Source: an uncultured Clostridia bacterium (lineage in GTDB: Bacteria; Bacillota; Clostridia; Oscillospirales; Acutalibacteraceae). Taken from it: DNA of 47,144 nt. The translations under genes and the position numbers were made by a program. The notes beneath the pieces were generated by a model that made no database searches, was not told the DNA's origin, and worked only from the letters and a program-made list of their open reading frames with translations. The stretch is from the NCBI GenBank assembly GCA_944384855.1, contig CALWUY010000054.1:1-47144 (forward strand), written 5' to 3'. This document shows, in pieces, positions 16,568 to 24,356 of the stretch (its first letter is position 1; every line of letters begins with the position of its first letter).

Positions 16568-17245
16568 ATGATTAAACTGCTGCTTGAATTACTGTCAAAC
16601 ATATTTTATTTCGCGCTTCATGTAACCGGTGCAGGATCTTTTCCGCCGCCGCTTTCCGCATCAAAGGAGTCCGAATTGCTTGAAAAAAGCCAAAACGGAG
16701 ATATTGAAGCGCGCAACTGCCTGGTAGAACACAACCTGCGGCTTGTCGCCCATATAGTCAAAAAATATTACGCTACCGGTGCCGAGCCCGATGACCTGAT
16801 ATCCATCGGAACAATAGGCCTTATAAAAGCGGTATCCTCATTTAAATCGGACAAAGGGATCCGTCTTGCCACCTATGCTGCCAGATGTATTGAAAATGAA
16901 ATACTTATGTTCTTCCGCAATCAGAAAAAATGTGCGCAGGATGTTTTCATCAGTGATCCGATCGACACAGATAAAGACGGAAACACACTTACCCTTATAG
17001 ACATTATCGCCGATAACCGTGATATTGCAGACGAAATAGATACGAAACTTAAACTTGAAAAATTAAAAGTCATAATAGGCGGTTGTCTCGACGAAAGAGA
17101 AATGGAAATAATTAAAATGCGGTACGGTTTGGGAGGATCCGCCGAACTGACCCAAAGGGATATCGCTAAAAAACTGGGCATTTCCCGCAGCTATGTTTCA
17201 CGGATAGAAAAAGCCGCCCTGGAAAAATTAAGGCGGCAGTTTTAA
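16568..17245 (+). CDS. sigK: Sporulation sigma factor SigK
   Basis: This 225-residue late mother-cell sigma factor directs transcription of spore coat and maturation genes. Region 2 is nearly canonical (EHNLRLVAHIVKKYYATG, then DDLISIGTIGLIKAV and LATYAARCIENEILMFFRNQ), and region 4 ends in TQRDIAKKLGISRSYVSRIE. Residues 1-20 form a hydrophobic pro-sequence followed by GSFPPPLSA, matching the SpoIVFB-processed form in Bacillus. The coding sequence is continuous, so no skin-type element interrupts it. The ATG follows AAGAGG. The stop is 8 bases from that of the converging kinase-like gene. Its presence implies an endospore former. Confidence 0.95.
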   Translation: MIKLLLELLSNIFYFALHVTGAGSFPPPLSASKESELLEKSQNGDIEARNCLVEHNLRLVAHIVKKYYATGAEPDDLISIGTIGLIKAVSSFKSDKGIRLATYAARCIENEILMFFRNQKKCAQDVFISDPIDTDKDGNTLTLIDIIADNRDIADEIDTKLKLEKLKVIIGGCLDEREMEIIKMRYGLGGSAELTQRDIAKKLGISRSYVSRIEKAALEKLRRQF

Positions 17246-18031: not shown

Positions 18032-18072
18032 CTATAATGTATAATTATGTATTAAAGGATGTACCGGTTTTA

Positions 18073-18840
18073 ATGGATAACACAAGCAAAGCCTTTTCAA
18101 ACGAACGCAGTTCCAATATTATCTGCGGTAGAAATTCCGTTCTTGAAGCTTTACGGTCAGGAAGAGAAATAGACCGTCTTTTTATCGCTCACGGCGTAAG
18201 CGGCGGCTCTGTTACGGAGATAGTTGCAAAATGCAGGGCAAAAGGTATTCTTATAAAGGAAATAAGCCCTTCCAAACTTGATTTTTACTGTGACGGGGCA
18301 TATCATCAAGGCGTAGCGGTAATGCTCGCTTCACAGGAATACTCCACTGTTGAAGAAATACTTGAATTTTCAAACAATAAAAACGAAAAACCGTTTATAA
18401 TAATATGCGATGAAATAGAAGACCCGCATAATTTGGGCGCTATTATCAGAACGGCCGAAGCCTGCGGAGTTCACGGTATAATAATACCTAAACGCAGAAG
18501 TGCTTCCCTTAACGCTACCGTCGCAAAATCCGCCTGCGGAGCGCTTGAATACATGAAGGTCGCCAGAGTAACTAATATTGCGAATACCATAGATTATCTG
18601 AAAGACAACGGCGTGTGGATTTTCGGAGCCGATATGGAGGGCGAAGACTACACAAAAGTTGATTTTGACATTCCGTGCGCTTTGGTGATAGGAAATGAGG
18701 GAAAAGGCATTGGCGCGCTTACCGCTAAAAAATGCGACCGTATTATAAGTCTTCCCATGCGCGGAAAAATAAACTCACTCAATGCATCGGTGGCTGCAGG
18801 CATTCTTATGTATGAAGCAGTCAGAAAAAGGAGTAAATAA
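18073..18840 (+). CDS. rlmB: 23S rRNA 2'-O-methyltransferase RlmB-like (TrmH/SpoU family)
   Basis: This 255-residue SPOUT enzyme is predicted to methylate the 2'-hydroxyl of G2251 in 23S rRNA using S-adenosylmethionine. The N-terminal substrate-binding domain reads IICGRNSVLEALRSGREIDRL. The three SPOUT motifs are NLGAIIRTAEACGVHGIIIP (motif 1), ALVIGNEGKGIG (motif 2), and LPMRGKINSLNASVAAGI (motif 3), which form the knotted cofactor site. The ATG at 18073 is preferred over 18037, which lies on the predicted transcription start. The stop and the next gene's ATG overlap by one base (TAATG). It leads a likely four-gene operon with the degenerate ATPase, metG and tatD. Confidence 0.9.
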   Translation: MDNTSKAFSNERSSNIICGRNSVLEALRSGREIDRLFIAHGVSGGSVTEIVAKCRAKGILIKEISPSKLDFYCDGAYHQGVAVMLASQEYSTVEEILEFSNNKNEKPFIIICDEIEDPHNLGAIIRTAEACGVHGIIIPKRRSASLNATVAKSACGALEYMKVARVTNIANTIDYLKDNGVWIFGADMEGEDYTKVDFDIPCALVIGNEGKGIGALTAKKCDRIISLPMRGKINSLNASVAAGILMYEAVRKRSK

Positions 18841-21554
18841 TGAAATTTTCTTTCAAAAAAAAGGACGATGATTTCTTCGTTTTATTAGAAGAAAAAGATC
18901 CAAATATTAACGAGAACCTCTCAGACGGCAAAACAATATCACATAATGCGCTTACTCCCGATGAAGTAGTATCGGGCTTCGGCAACGAAAACAAAACAAA
19001 TATCAGTCGGACCGGAGCGCTTGACAGTTTAAAAAAGCGTATTGTATCCGCTGCTGCCAATAACGAGAACAGCGGGATTATAAGTAAAAATACGGATAAT
19101 GTTCCCCCCGAACAGCATAGTGACAATTCGGATGAAAACATTTTGACAGATACCCCCGAATCTCAGGAGATATCCCAAAAAACTATGCCGCAGCCCATGA
19201 CGGAAACACAGAAGGTTTCAAAAACCGATGAGGCAAGATCAAACCGCTCAGCAGATAAAAAATCTTCCCTGCTTGACAAATGCTCTGCTTATATTACCGA
19301 TGATGACGGCAACGAAGCTTACCTAAACGCCAAACCCCTTTATAAACTTCAAAGTGTCGCCGAAATTTTAAAAACCGACAGCCAAAAAGCGCTCGAACGG
19401 CTTTCGGAAAAATATGATGTATCATTTGATGATTTAGGTAAAAATTCAGATGATTATCCTGATAATAAGCCGGAAAAGACTCAGGAATCCGCTCCGCCAC
19501 ATGTAAAATCCTCGAAAATCTCAGTTCCGGACACTGAAACCGAAAGTAATAACCGGCAGCCTGAAATTTTTGAAGATAAAATATCACTGAAAAATGTTCA
19601 GTCCAACGTCAAATCGATTATTTCGGATATTGATATTCCGTCTGTACCGGCAGATTCCGACGCTGCGCCTAAAATCAGCGACACAGCTACAATAACATTC
19701 ACTCCGGTAATCGACAGTCCTGACGGAAAGTCTCATTTAAGTGTTTCTTCAAAAACAAGACCGATAGATTTGACGGGAGAGCTTACCAAACTTCCCGAAA
19801 TTTCCCGGGATTCAGATGAGATTCAGCTTGAAAAAAATGAATTTGAAGATTATACTCCCAAAGAAGAGTTTGACAGCAGTAAAAACGCAGGAAAATTCAT
19901 AAGAAAGTTTTCAATAAACAAACGCAACAATTTTGTTATTACCTTTTTCACGATTTTCCTTACAGTTATTCTGTCATCTGTGAGATTGCCGCTGCTGTCT
20001 GAATTTGTTCTTTCACACACCCGCATGGTCATGACGGTATGTACAGCCGTGACAGCGGTTATAATGCTTATCAACGCAAAAATGTTTCTATCTCTCAAAA
20101 ATATTTTCAGACGAAGATGTGTGCCTGATGTCAGCATGAGCTTAGCCTCTCTGACAGTCATGACCTATGCAGTATTCGGTATATTTTCCGGAATTATAAT
20201 AACAGATATTCTTATACTGCTGGCGGTTATGCTGTCATTCAGATCTCTTGCCTGTTTTTACAGATCATCATTCATGCTGTCAAATATCAGGCAGATAAGC
20301 GGCAGTCATCGGAAAAATGCCGTAAAACTTATAGATGACAACGCAATAACCTTTGCTATGTCAAAAAACGCCATTGACGGCGACGTATTAATCGCCGCTC
20401 CACAGAAGACAGAACAGGTTTCCGATTTTATAAAATACTCTACTTTCGGAATATTTTTAGGCGGCAAGCTGCCGGTATTGACAGTGACTTCGGTTATACT
20501 GTCTATTATCTTAGGATTTACCTGCGCATCATATTTTGACGGTGCTGTCTACGGTTTTTATGCGGCAGCCGCTATACAATGCTTTACCGCGCTTCCCGCC
20601 GCGTTTCTTATAGATACCTTTCCTCAGTACCGCGCGTCTAAGAAACTTAACCGGAAGGGCGGTATGATTGCCGGAAAAACCGGAGCCGAACATTTAGAAA
20701 TGGCAAATGCCGTTGTAATTGATTCGGCAGACCTTTTCCCTCCGGGATCAATTACACTGCACCAGATGAAAGTTTTATCGGAAAACAACCTGGAAGATAC
20801 TATTGTGCGGGCCGCATCTCTTACCGAAACGCTTAACAGCGCGTTAGCCCCGATATTCAAAAAAATTGCCGGAACCGGCAATATAACAACTCTTCCCGAC
20901 TCCGATACAGTAAAATACGAAGACCGAATGGGAATTTCAGGCTGGGTTGACAACCGTCTGCTGTTTATCGGCAACCGTACACTGATGGAGGCGCACGGAA
21001 TCGAAGTTCCCCCGGTTGAAGTTGACCGCAGAATTTTACGCAAAGGTTATTTTCCGGTTTATGTGGCGACAAAGGACAAGGCCTGCGCGCTTTTGATTGT
21101 TCAGTACAGCGCCGATAAAACTGTGGCAGGCGAACTCAGGAAACTTACCTCTTCCGGTGTCACTCTCCTAATAAATAACTGCGACCCCAATTTAATCGAG
21201 GAAATGATATGTGATTATTTCGGCCTTTACAGCGATTCGGTCAAGGTGATGTCCGCCGCCGGATGCCACATGTATAAAAATGCAGTATCGCCTATTAAAT
21301 CCATATCCGCACCGGCTGTATTCAGAGGCAATCCAATTACTATTGTTTCAATACTGAATATCGCGGCAAAAATCAAAAAATCAAATATACTGCTTACCTC
21401 AATGTATATAATATCAGCGGTTTTGGGAGCCGTGATTTTTGCTTACACATCCTTAAACGGATCAGGCGAAATGGTAAGTGAAGCGCTGCTTCTGCTGTAT
21501 GGGCTTATCAGCACCGTTTTGACATATTTAATCTACATTTTTATAAGACCGTAA
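18840..21554 (+). CDS. Degenerate P-type-ATPase-like membrane protein with long disordered N-terminus
   Basis: This 904-residue protein starts with about 355 polar, low-complexity residues (one helical island, KPLYKLQSVAEILKTDSQKA, near 165-185), followed by a membrane part resembling P1B metal ATPases. The resemblance runs in order: paired helices (about 362-430), a shortened actuator-like region, then QCFTALPAAFLID where CPC is expected, GGMIAGKTGAEHLEMANAVV, and VVIDSADLF exactly where DKTGT should be (Asp628 kept, Lys-Thr-Gly-Thr lost). NNCD (779-782) replaces TGDN, and no TGES is seen. Two helices close the protein. The phosphorylation cycle is therefore probably lost. It overlaps rlmB by one base. 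Role unknown; sensor or scaffold is a guess. Confidence 0.8.
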   Translation: MKFSFKKKDDDFFVLLEEKDPNINENLSDGKTISHNALTPDEVVSGFGNENKTNISRTGALDSLKKRIVSAAANNENSGIISKNTDNVPPEQHSDNSDENILTDTPESQEISQKTMPQPMTETQKVSKTDEARSNRSADKKSSLLDKCSAYITDDDGNEAYLNAKPLYKLQSVAEILKTDSQKALERLSEKYDVSFDDLGKNSDDYPDNKPEKTQESAPPHVKSSKISVPDTETESNNRQPEIFEDKISLKNVQSNVKSIISDIDIPSVPADSDAAPKISDTATITFTPVIDSPDGKSHLSVSSKTRPIDLTGELTKLPEISRDSDEIQLEKNEFEDYTPKEEFDSSKNAGKFIRKFSINKRNNFVITFFTIFLTVILSSVRLPLLSEFVLSHTRMVMTVCTAVTAVIMLINAKMFLSLKNIFRRRCVPDVSMSLASLTVMTYAVFGIFSGIIITDILILLAVMLSFRSLACFYRSSFMLSNIRQISGSHRKNAVKLIDDNAITFAMSKNAIDGDVLIAAPQKTEQVSDFIKYSTFGIFLGGKLPVLTVTSVILSIILGFTCASYFDGAVYGFYAAAAIQCFTALPAAFLIDTFPQYRASKKLNRKGGMIAGKTGAEHLEMANAVVIDSADLFPPGSITLHQMKVLSENNLEDTIVRAASLTETLNSALAPIFKKIAGTGNITTLPDSDTVKYEDRMGISGWVDNRLLFIGNRTLMEAHGIEVPPVEVDRRILRKGYFPVYVATKDKACALLIVQYSADKTVAGELRKLTSSGVTLLINNCDPNLIEEMICDYFGLYSDSVKVMSAAGCHMYKNAVSPIKSISAPAVFRGNPITIVSILNIAAKIKKSNILLTSMYIISAVLGAVIFAYTSLNGSGEMVSEALLLLYGLISTVLTYLIYIFIRP

Positions 21555-21587: not shown

Positions 21588-23510
21588 ATGTCAGACAAAC
21601 AGAAATTCTATATTACCACAGCAATTGCTTACACCTCGCGCAAGCCTCATATAGGCAATGCGTATGACATAGTGCTGGCAGATATGATAGCACGCTATAA
21701 AAAAATGATGGGGTTTGACGTATATCTTATGACCGGTTCCGATGAGCACGGACAAAAAATCGAAGAATACGCAAAGGCAGCCGGTATTTCCCCTAAAGAG
21801 TACGTTGACAATGTATCGTCCCAGATAAAAGCCGTGTGGGACAGCCTTAATACCTGCTACGACAAATTTATACGGACTACCGACAGCGACCACGAGTTGA
21901 CTGTTCAGAAAATTTTTAAAAAGCTGTATGAACAGGGCGATATATACAAAGGCTATTATGAGGGCAAGTACTGCGTACCGTGCGAATCGTTTTTTACCGC
22001 TTCACAGCTGGTTGACGGAAAATGTCCCGACTGCGGAAGAGAGGTAATCGACTCAAAGGAAGAAGCGTATTTCCTTAAGCTCAGCAAATATCAGGACAAA
22101 TTGCTTGAGTACTATGAACAAAACCCTGATTTCATAAAACCCGAATCGCGGAAAAATGAAATGATAAATAACTTTTTAAAGCCCGGTTTATCAGACCTCT
22201 GCGTTTCCAGAACCTCATTTAAATGGGGAATACCTGTTCCGTTTGACAAAGAACATGTAATTTATGTATGGATAGACGCTCTCTCAAACTACATTACCGG
22301 AATAGGCTACGACCCTGACGGAAGTGAGGATAAATTCAACTATTTGTGGCCGGCTGATCTCCACGTTATCGGCAAAGACATAGTGCGTTTTCATACGATT
22401 TACTGGCCTATTATCCTTATGGCGTTAGGTCTTCCGCTCCCGAAACAGGTGTTGGGACATCCGTGGGTTCTTGTCGGCGAAGACAAAATGTCAAAATCAA
22501 AGGGCAATGTCATTTACGCAGACGAGCTGGCAGAACAGTTTGGCATAGACGCTGTGCGCTATTACCTGCTGTCAGAGGTTTCCTTTACTCAGGACGGCAC
22601 TATAACCTACGAAAACTTTATTTCTAAATTCAATTCTGAACTTGCCAATACTTTGGGAAATCTTGTAAACCGCTGCATAGCTATGGCGAATAAGTATTTC
22701 GGCGGCAAGGTTGCAAAAGGAGAAGCAAGTGAAGAATGCGACAAAGAGCTTATCTCATGTGCGCAAGAAACCATAAACGATTATCGCAGGTTTATGGACA
22801 TATATCACAATGCCGACGCGTGCGAAACCGTTATGTCATTCGCAAAAAGATGCAATAAATATATTGACGAAACTGCTCCCTGGGTTCTTGCCAAAGACGA
22901 TTCAAGCAGAGACCGTCTTGAAAGCGTGCTGTATAATCTGCTGGAATGCATACGGTTAATCAGCATAATGCTGTATCCTGTAATACCTGACAGCTGTGAA
23001 AGTATAAAGAAACAGCTTTGCTGCAGCTGCGAAACCCTCGAGTTTTCGGCTGTCAGCCAATACCTTACCGGCGAAGCTGTGCCGCTGTTTGCGAGACTTG
23101 ATGCCGCAAAAATACTTGAGGAAATATCCGCAAAGCAGAAAGCCGCACAAAAAAACGATAATGCTGAGAATGTGGCGGTTCTCTCTGAAATTTCGGTTGA
23201 GGACTTCGCAAAAATCGAACTGAGAGCCGCTGAAATCACTGCATGCGAACCGATACCGAAAGCGAAAAAACTGCTGAAATTAACCCTTAATGACGGCAGT
23301 TCAAAACCCCGTACCGTGGCATCGGGAATCGCCAAGTGGTATAAACCCGAAGACCTGACAGGACATACCGTAATAGTGGTTTCAAATTTAAAACCCGCAA
23401 AGCTTTGCGGAGTGGAATCTCAGGGAATGATTTTGGCGGCGGACTGCGCTGAAGACCAGGTCAAGGTAATATTCGCTGACGGTATCCCGGCAGGAAGTAA
23501 AATCAGATGA
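21588..23510 (+). CDS. metG: Methionyl-tRNA synthetase with C-terminal tRNA-binding domain
   Basis: This 640-residue class I synthetase charges tRNA-Met. It has HIGN near residue 21 (variant of HIGH), a zinc knuckle with CVPC (about 127) and CPDC (about 145), and KMSKSKGN (about 302). The alpha-helical anticodon domain follows, and from about residue 535 there is an EMAP/Trbp111-like tRNA-binding domain (EDFAKIELRAAEI, then GMILAA). The length is usual for the long form. The ATG follows TTAGGAGG. It lies 33 bases after the degenerate ATPase gene and overlaps tatD by 4 bases (ATGA), so these belong to one transcript. Confidence 0.97.
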   Translation: MSDKQKFYITTAIAYTSRKPHIGNAYDIVLADMIARYKKMMGFDVYLMTGSDEHGQKIEEYAKAAGISPKEYVDNVSSQIKAVWDSLNTCYDKFIRTTDSDHELTVQKIFKKLYEQGDIYKGYYEGKYCVPCESFFTASQLVDGKCPDCGREVIDSKEEAYFLKLSKYQDKLLEYYEQNPDFIKPESRKNEMINNFLKPGLSDLCVSRTSFKWGIPVPFDKEHVIYVWIDALSNYITGIGYDPDGSEDKFNYLWPADLHVIGKDIVRFHTIYWPIILMALGLPLPKQVLGHPWVLVGEDKMSKSKGNVIYADELAEQFGIDAVRYYLLSEVSFTQDGTITYENFISKFNSELANTLGNLVNRCIAMANKYFGGKVAKGEASEECDKELISCAQETINDYRRFMDIYHNADACETVMSFAKRCNKYIDETAPWVLAKDDSSRDRLESVLYNLLECIRLISIMLYPVIPDSCESIKKQLCCSCETLEFSAVSQYLTGEAVPLFARLDAAKILEEISAKQKAAQKNDNAENVAVLSEISVEDFAKIELRAAEITACEPIPKAKKLLKLTLNDGSSKPRTVASGIAKWYKPEDLTGHTVIVVSNLKPAKLCGVESQGMILAADCAEDQVKVIFADGIPAGSKIR

Positions 23511-24292
23511 CAGAACTGATAAATCCCTGCCCTGTCACCGAGCCAGTTATATTTGACACCCATGCTCATTACGACGATGAACGTTTCAAAGAAATAAAAG
23601 ATCTGTTTCCTTTCCTTAAGAGCCACGGTGTGGGAGGAATAATAACCTGCGGTTGCGATGTTCAATCATCCCGCGATGCGCTTTCGATTGCCGAAAAGTA
23701 TGATTTTGTTTACTCTGCTGCCGGAATTCATCCTGAAAATTTAGAAAACGGCACCGACCAGTATGAGATAGAAAAACTCTGCAAAAAGGATAAATGCGTT
23801 GCTGTCGGCGAGATAGGACTTGATTATTATTGGCACGATGATAACAAGCCTTTGCAGAAACAAACTTTTTCCGAGCAGCTTATGCTGGCGAACCGGCTTG
23901 GTATGCCTGTTATCGTCCACGACAGAGACGCTCACGCTGATATGCTTGAAATATTGAAGGAATATAAGCCAAAAGGTGTAGTTCACAGTTTTTCCGGAAG
24001 TCCGGAAATGGCTGACGAAATCATAAAGCTGGGTATGTATATCGGAGTCGGAGGCGTTATAACCTTTAAAAACGCAAGAAAATTGCCGGAAGTTGTGAAA
24101 AGAATTCCGCAAGAGCGTATACTGCTTGAAACAGACGCTCCCTATCTGACGCCTGCTCCGTACAGGTCAAAAATAAACCATTCTGCCATGATATATCTGA
24201 CAGCTCAGAAAATAGCGGAAATAAAACAAATCCCTACAGATTTTGTTTTGAAAACGACTTTCGACAATGCCCGAAAACTTTTTGGAATTTAA
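23507..24292 (+). CDS. TatD-family metal-dependent deoxyribonuclease
   Basis: This 261-residue TIM-barrel hydrolase of the YcfH/TatD family probably acts on DNA or D-aminoacyl-tRNA-like substrates in the cytoplasm. Metal ligands are visible: FDTHAHYDD (His-x-His), VGEIGLDYYW (Glu), IVHDRDAH (His), VVHSFSGS (His), and LLETDAPYL (Asp). The first 4 bases overlap metG (ATGA), and the metG-tatD order is common in Firmicutes. A 21-bp hairpin follows and also covers the ribosome binding site of the next small gene. The cellular substrate is not resolved for the family. Confidence 0.94.
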   Translation: MTELINPCPVTEPVIFDTHAHYDDERFKEIKDLFPFLKSHGVGGIITCGCDVQSSRDALSIAEKYDFVYSAAGIHPENLENGTDQYEIEKLCKKDKCVAVGEIGLDYYWHDDNKPLQKQTFSEQLMLANRLGMPVIVHDRDAHADMLEILKEYKPKGVVHSFSGSPEMADEIIKLGMYIGVGGVITFKNARKLPEVVKRIPQERILLETDAPYLTPAPYRSKINHSAMIYLTAQKIAEIKQIPTDFVLKTTFDNARKLFGI

Positions 24293-24311: not shown

Positions 24312-24356
24312 AATCACCCCGCTTTCACAAATACTATTTGTGAAAGCGGGGTGATT
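24312..24356 (+). terminator. 21-bp hairpin: terminator of tatD that also masks the next gene's ribosome binding site
   Basis: Positions 24312-24332 and 24336-24356 are perfect complements with a 3-base loop (ACT), followed by a short T-run. The right arm contains GGGGTGAT (24349-24356 region), which resembles a Shine-Dalgarno and is 4-5 bases before the ATG at 24361. The fold can therefore stop transcription after tatD, and in any read-through or longer message would hide the ribosome binding site. Confidence 0.75.

Follow-up and report, generated by a model that had tools for sequence, protein, structure and literature searches.

We analyzed a 47,144-nucleotide contig of an uncultured Clostridia bacterium of the order Oscillospirales (the window) and focused on an open reading frame (ORF) between rlmB and metG, here named PPX. 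The PPX frame is intact, with an ATG start and 904 residues, and the last 555 residues of the product are homologous to P1B (CopA-type) ATPases, as found by profile-profile alignment, by a profile search of the PDB and in the predicted structure. Table 1 lists the features at this locus. The TAA of rlmB shares one base with the ATG of PPX, and an AAGGAG ribosome-binding site upstream of PPX sits within the final codons of rlmB. Since a terminator-like hairpin follows tatD, the genes rlmB, PPX, metG and tatD are suggested to form a single operon. The consensus scan of both strands gave 9 terminator-like sites, compared with 6.4 in shuffled sequences, and the other site on the plus strand, with 7 pairs, lies inside PPX at 21417-21433.

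Table 1. Features at the PPX locus, in positions of the window (pLDDT, predicted local distance difference test)
Feature	Position	Strand	Basis or remark
PPX, pseudo-P1B-ATPase gene	18840..21554	+	ORF, homologues, predicted structure
N-terminal tail, residues 1-346, acidic, mostly pLDDT <50	18840..19877	+	model
Residues 37-48, ALTPDEVVSGFG, possible counterpart of [FY]S[ILV]DDILxEF	18948..18983	+	placed by eye
Conserved small module, residues 143-199	19266..19436	+	conservation profile
Membrane helices MA, MB, M1 and M2, residues 347-487	19878..20300	+	DSSP of model, hhalign
Shrunken A-domain remnant, residues 488-543, no TGES	20301..20468	+	model, hhalign
M3 and M4, residues 544-605; CPC position A584-L585-P586	20469..20654	+	model, hhalign
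DKTGT position, residues 628-636, DSADLFPPG	20721..20747	+	alignment
N-domain-like region, residues ~647-757	20778..21110	+	boundaries approximate, from model
TGD position, residues 780-784, NCDPN (family DPN)	21177..21191	+	alignment
M5 and M6, residues 834-901	21339..21542	+	model
rlmB, SpoU family methyltransferase	18037..18840	+	ORF and Pfam
metG	21588..23510	+	begins 33 bases past PPX
tatD	23507..24292	+	overlaps metG
Terminator-like hairpin, 20 pairs and T-run	24313..24355	+	3' of tatD, consensus scan

A Pfam search of the single window protein returned no P-type match. The same sequence matched the NCBIfam models CopA (E value 8.4e-10) and TIGR01525 (1.9e-7), both far under the cut-offs, and it matched the Legionella CopA (LpCopA, 3rfu) in the PDB with an E value of 1.1e-8. 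When a family profile (A1) was built from 34 core sequences, it matched LpCopA at 2.1e-32 over profile positions 203-478. The NCBIfam CopA model matched 31 of the 34 members at E values up to 0.01 (best 4.4e-17), and Pfam gave a HAD Hydrolase match in four of them (best 6.5e-5). Using hhalign, we aligned the PPX profile with a profile of 17 true pumps from outside the order. The local alignment had a probability of 99.9 and an E value of 6e-34 over 456 columns, and the global alignment extended over 553 columns, from MA through M6. Two regions were lost in PPX: about 63 gap columns fell in the A domain, on the side of TGES, with the GDxV element retained, and about 32 fell in the P domain, at GDGxND and what follows. 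P1B homology was thus found across the membrane, P and N domains, and the profile search that the first-pass annotation had proposed against P-type families gave significant matches.

An AlphaFold2 model was built with 81 sequences, the window copy and 80 near relatives (the near set). The core of the model has pLDDT values mostly above 90, with helices at residues 347-380, 394-411, 430-450, 455-487, 544-566, 569-583/586-605, 834-872 and 881-901. Residues 492-535 form a small A-like domain, and the P/N-like parts span 608-828. The predicted structure follows the eight-helix plan of MA, MB and M1-M6, with the A loop between M2 and M3 and the P and N parts between M4 and M5. In the A remnant, D513-G-D-V aligns to the GDxV element that comes after TGES in true pumps; in the N-domain-like region the histidine of the HP motif is lost and the second glycine of GxG (G698) is retained. 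The best Foldseek matches of the model were copper, zinc and potassium P-type ATPases, with 4bbj at an E value of 1.1e-17, and all 50 matches listed, of 181 at E values up to 0.001, were whole or partial P-type ATPases. A structure prediction had been suggested as a check for A, P and N domains, and the model shows remnants of this organisation, as far as a prediction can tell.

To describe the motifs, we used the near set together with an order set of 135 loci, which includes the window, has duplicates removed and contains some ORFs clipped at contig ends. In whole ORFs, DKTGT, GDGxND and SEHP were each found in none of the 81 near-set and none of the 135 order-set sequences. SEHP is present in all 17 canonical proteins listed, and no order-set sequence has a histidine at position 667. 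TGES was found in none of the order set and in two near-set sequences, both times located in the tail, and the A domain lacks it in all members compared, as the first-pass annotation had said of the window copy. TGEA occurs in four order-set sequences, one of which (L044) has it in the A remnant, at the GDxV and not the TGES position. The loop between M2 and M3 has a median of 52 residues in the order set, and the median distance from D782 to M5 is 53 residues, compared with 104 from TGD to the M5 motif in the first five canonical proteins, with end points set differently in the two measurements. From the lack of the phosphorylation motif, the hinge motif and the A-domain TGES it follows that, judged from the sequences, the canonical phosphorylation cycle should be unable to run in PPX by the known mechanism.

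Close homologues with an intact DKTGT had been named beforehand as the sign that the window copy alone is decaying; since DKTGT occurs in none of the PPX sequences compared, decay of this copy alone was rejected. We also scored the motifs in 189 profile-match loci, repeats included. None of DKTGT, TGES and GDGxND was found in 168 of these, and DKTGT was found in 21. Three of these are pumps of the window's own genome, and 18 are class-level loci from outside the order, which are all of the best-match loci fetched there. The window's own genome encodes five P-type ATPases, and the three that match the profile carry DKTGT.

At the level of single residues, the first-pass annotation had read CPC as altered to CFT, DKTGT as altered to DSADLF with Asp628 kept, and TGDN as altered to NNCD. 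CPC is indeed lost, but its position is Ala584-Leu585-Pro586 and not CFT at 581-583; the order consensus there is A-P-[LF]. DSADLF does occupy the DKTGT position, but among the clostridial homologues its Asp628 is not conserved, being Asp in 9 of the 81 near-set sequences (N in 26, S in 23, T in 6, H in 5, and others) and in 27 of the 135 order-set sequences. The TGD position is altered to Asn780-Cys781-Asp782, and this Asp782 is conserved (80/81 and 131/135); the GDGxND segment is missing and not altered. F633, S667, Y693, E694, G698, G701, W702 and N784 are invariant in the near set, and the order set retains G698 in 132, F633 in 117 and N784 in 108 sequences. The order set also has Asp at 629 in 103 sequences and at 631 in 96 (Glu in 27), whereas Asp is absent from 629 throughout the near set (Ser in 55 of 81). 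Position 891 is Trp in 125 of the order set, compared with Ser in 42, Ala in 17 and Cys in 9 of the near set, in which Trp is not among the commonest residues.

The presence of PPX in other genomes was scored as a profile match with an E value up to 1e-40. By this measure PPX was found in 137 of the 147 order genomes sampled and in 24 of 26 families, including 113 of 118 near-complete genomes, with one match per genome except in G089, which has two pieces on two contigs. A search with the single sequence gave 140 of 147 genomes at E values up to 0.001; since this count may include true pumps, the profile count was used. When the ten genomes without PPX were searched again, 29 matches were obtained and 20 loci were fetched. 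Of the 22 ORFs behind the matches, 20 have DKTGT and the two without it are one G049 fragment seen in two loci. Five of the ten genomes are near-complete, so PPX is not strictly universal in the order. Both sampled genomes of genus g52 (G087 and G157) have no PPX but have Spo0A and true pumps, which may represent a real loss.

Outside the order, full matches were not found. In a sample of the class (291 genomes, at most four candidates scored in each), 12 members of the order matched across the entire core, and none of the 279 other genomes gave a full match, the best being 2.3e-36 over positions 205-478 only. In a sample of the phylum, 6 of 398 genomes matched at 1e-40, all six inside the order, with three candidates per genome scored among the matches shown. 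The record titles of the near relatives are mostly metagenome-assembled genomes of Clostridia, Oscillospiraceae and Ruminococcaceae, many of them from rumen and gut. A strict link of PPX to sporulation is unlikely: Spo0A was found in 133 of the 147 genomes, 12 of the 14 genomes without a Spo0A match have PPX, and the two g52 genomes, with Spo0A and no PPX, also weigh against it. Four of the carriers without Spo0A belong to one genus (G077, G093, G107 and G133; genus g36, family f10), and their PPX frames of 553-554 residues have hardly any tail.

We estimated the ratio of nonsynonymous to synonymous substitution rates (dN/dS) in 25 of 73 candidate pairs, taking the most similar first and skipping pairs of two already used sequences. 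The ratio was 0.024-0.157 for the core (25 pairs) and 0.040-0.346 for the tail (22 pairs), and in several pairs dS exceeded 1, which makes those estimates rough. Judged from these codon comparisons, PPX is under strong purifying selection. Catalytic residues are lost in the orthologues and the frame is kept under selection, as in a pseudoenzyme. In one genome (G046, loci L036/L147) PPX is broken by a single in-frame TGA, which may be decay or a sequencing error.

The N-terminal tail, described by the first-pass annotation as a long acidic disordered extension, is mostly of low confidence in the model, in keeping with that description, and in addition has conserved segments. In the 81 sequences these are the start, residues ~37-48, 61-68 and 143-199, and several short segments near 261-310. 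Residues 143-199 (SLLxKCxxYIxDxxG ... PxYxLxSVxxIL) are nearly ungapped in these sequences, which cover the genus and close relatives, and are partly structured in the model. A regular expression for the start of this module had no match in other loci of the order, and a search of residues 131-200 against the rest of the genome (G000) matched nothing else. The tails of other families of the order share motifs such as FSIDDILAEF. Among 123 tails of at least 60 residues, one motif expression matched 48, compared with 0.9 on average and at most 5 in 200 shuffles, and a second matched 44, compared with 0.6 on average and at most 4. A search of 14,269 ORFs (2.04 million residues, mainly PPX neighbourhoods and not proteomes) for a strict form of the motif gave 28 occurrences, all in the PPX family: 27 in PPX ORFs and one in L036, in the 5' half of its interrupted PPX.

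In the genomic neighbourhood, rlmB lies directly upstream of PPX in 79 of 80 named near-relative loci, and the 80th contig begins inside PPX. Of the order-set loci, 120 have rlmB adjacent, 13 have a cut flank and the remaining two fail, namely L147, where PPX is interrupted and rlmB stands before the first half, and L277. A fixed downstream partner was rejected, as different genes follow PPX among 40 order-wide loci, the commonest group being EF-G-like (10 of 40, with Pfam run on two). Upstream, about 50 of the near-relative loci L063-L133 have an opposite-strand gene near rlmB that is enolase-like by reading and falls in one BLAST cluster of 52 ORFs. In the window, a sigma-70 family gene (Pfam) lies upstream at 16568-17245 and adjoins a cytidylate-kinase-like gene on the opposite strand; judging by its start, we take it to be sigma K-like.

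In 28 loci of the class outside the order, the gene after rlmB encodes an NYN-type protein in 8 (called from a BLAST cluster and by reading), a sigma factor in 7 and CopA in 1. A search of 16 genomes from another, small order of the class found rlmB in 14, five of which (L338, L340, L341, L348 and L350) have an intact CopA directly after it. These rlmB-linked CopAs carry CPC, TGE[SA], DKTGT, GDGxND and SEHP, and their position pointed to an origin of PPX from a CopA at that site. However, an IQ-TREE tree of 282 shared columns, built from 16 hand-picked PPX, 5 rlmB-linked CopAs, 17 outgroup proteins and 3 pumps of the window's own genome (the short L208 was omitted), did not group PPX with the rlmB-linked CopAs; the true pumps all fell together, with support 100, on a long branch. 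Since the tree does not tie PPX to these CopAs, an origin in place is unproven.

PPX shares with P1B ATPases such as Legionella CopA (3rfu/4bbj) and Archaeoglobus CopA the number and order of membrane helices, the layout of the P and N domains and a sequence that can be aligned from MA as far as the P domain. It differs in that the PPX compared have no CPC, A-domain TGES, DKTGT, HP histidine or GDGxND, the A domain is about halved, a long tail is usual and no HMA-type metal domain was noticed. Like pseudoenzymes generally, for example pseudokinases and iRhoms, it combines an old fold and lost catalytic residues with new conserved motifs and strong selection. It is well supported that PPX is a pseudoenzyme of P1B descent and not a P1B ATPase. 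For its function, we infer a non-catalytic, membrane-anchored scaffold or sensor, and we give an even chance to the reading as a whole, in which PPX is an ancient pseudo-P1B-ATPase working in this way. The acidic, mostly disordered tail would reach into the cytosol and recruit a partner via short helical motifs. In the P domain, the loops that are retained (FPxG and DPN, including the acidic D631 and D782) and the conserved link between M4 and this domain may bind a ligand or partner, and this binding would pass a conformational change between the membrane and cytosolic parts.

Several observations weigh against this reading. The tail motif expressions were drawn up after reading 16 tails from the same data. 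They fail on the window copy, and the strict form occurs in none of the 81 near-set sequences, so it is an alignment by eye that links the motif to the window. In family f10, each of the nine genomes sampled has a PPX frame of 541-564 residues in which the tail is very short or absent, so a scaffold that works through the tail cannot account for the entire function. TM-scores of the model to pumps are globally modest (0.36/0.45, with a root mean square deviation of 11). At the CPC site a few members of the order set retain one cysteine (C584 in 3, C586 in 5), and the PPX of L289 (G153) reads SPC there, the only one of 135 to do so. The retained acidic residues D629, D631 and D782 may also leave room for residual activity.

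It is rather unlikely, in our estimate, that PPX is a passive or ligand-gated transporter or channel whose P-type membrane domain still moves a solute, independently of ATP. The model retains all eight membrane helices, the segment from M4 to the P domain is among the best conserved, and the order set has conserved membrane residues at P585 (103), W891 (125) and P894 (100), for which the window has L585, S891 and L894. Against such a role, the metal ligands of P1B ATPases are nearly gone, with Tyr859 in 4 of 135 sequences in addition to the few cysteines at 584 and 586, and no transport gene is a constant neighbour.

It was also considered that PPX may still be an enzyme, either a HAD-type phosphotransferase or an ATPase of altered mechanism that uses D-x-D (629/631) in place of DKTGT; we regard this as improbable. 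The P domain of P-type ATPases has the HAD fold, and D-x-D resembles HAD motif I. PPX may resemble HAD phosphohydrolases in the frequent D-x-D and T-x-D of the order set, in addition to the Hydrolase matches in 4 of 34 members: D629 and D631 occur jointly in 79 of 135 sequences, Thr or Ser at 780 in 95 and D782 in 131, and 50 sequences have all of these together. However, HAD motifs III and IV were not found in PPX, as no column among the expected 786-835 is more than 40% acidic or more than 49% Lys/Arg. The GDGxND segment is deleted, and the window copy itself has Ser at 629, as do most of its near relatives, none of which have Asp there.

A role in cell-envelope polymer synthesis, for instance as a regulatory subunit of a neighbouring Wzy/O-antigen-ligase-like protein, is likewise improbable. 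In 22 of 80 near-relative loci a membrane protein gene of one Wzy-like cluster lies directly after PPX, and metG comes after that gene in 17 of the 22 (for example L104, L108, L125 and L129 among L059-L138); the three members run match Wzy_C (PF04932). The gene is not seen there in the other 58 near loci or in any of the 40 order-wide loci, and one such protein had no match in the window's genome, in a search run without a positive control. As for a decaying metal-pump pseudogene, the lost catalytic motifs and the in-frame TGA of one relative would point to it, but it has virtually no chance and is refuted by long frames across 24 families, by dN/dS ratios much lower than 1 and by new invariant residues. 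The view of the first-pass annotation that this is a repurposed P-type fold and not a fresh pseudogene is borne out by the intact frame, the strong family-profile match and the conservation across the order.

Few machines are as well studied as the P-type ATPases, and it is usual to treat their catalytic motifs as diagnostic. A literature search found no family-wide bacterial P-type-fold pseudoenzyme among the titles listed, which does not show that none is in print. No model dedicated to the PPX family was found in the Pfam and NCBIfam libraries, so PPX is probably hidden among hypothetical proteins. More tentatively, and with considerable doubt, the whole order may depend on a pseudo-P-type ATPase, an ion-pump fold without catalysis or metal sites, that serves as a conformational membrane scaffold or sensor, has a disordered motif-bearing arm in most families and is operon-locked with rlmB, possibly linking ribosome and translation genes to the membrane. 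PPX is a single-copy, near-universal family without the catalytic motifs, in an order many of whose members come from gut and rumen, and would represent a fold kept for a role other than pumping. It poses the testable question of what a P-type fold does without ATP hydrolysis.

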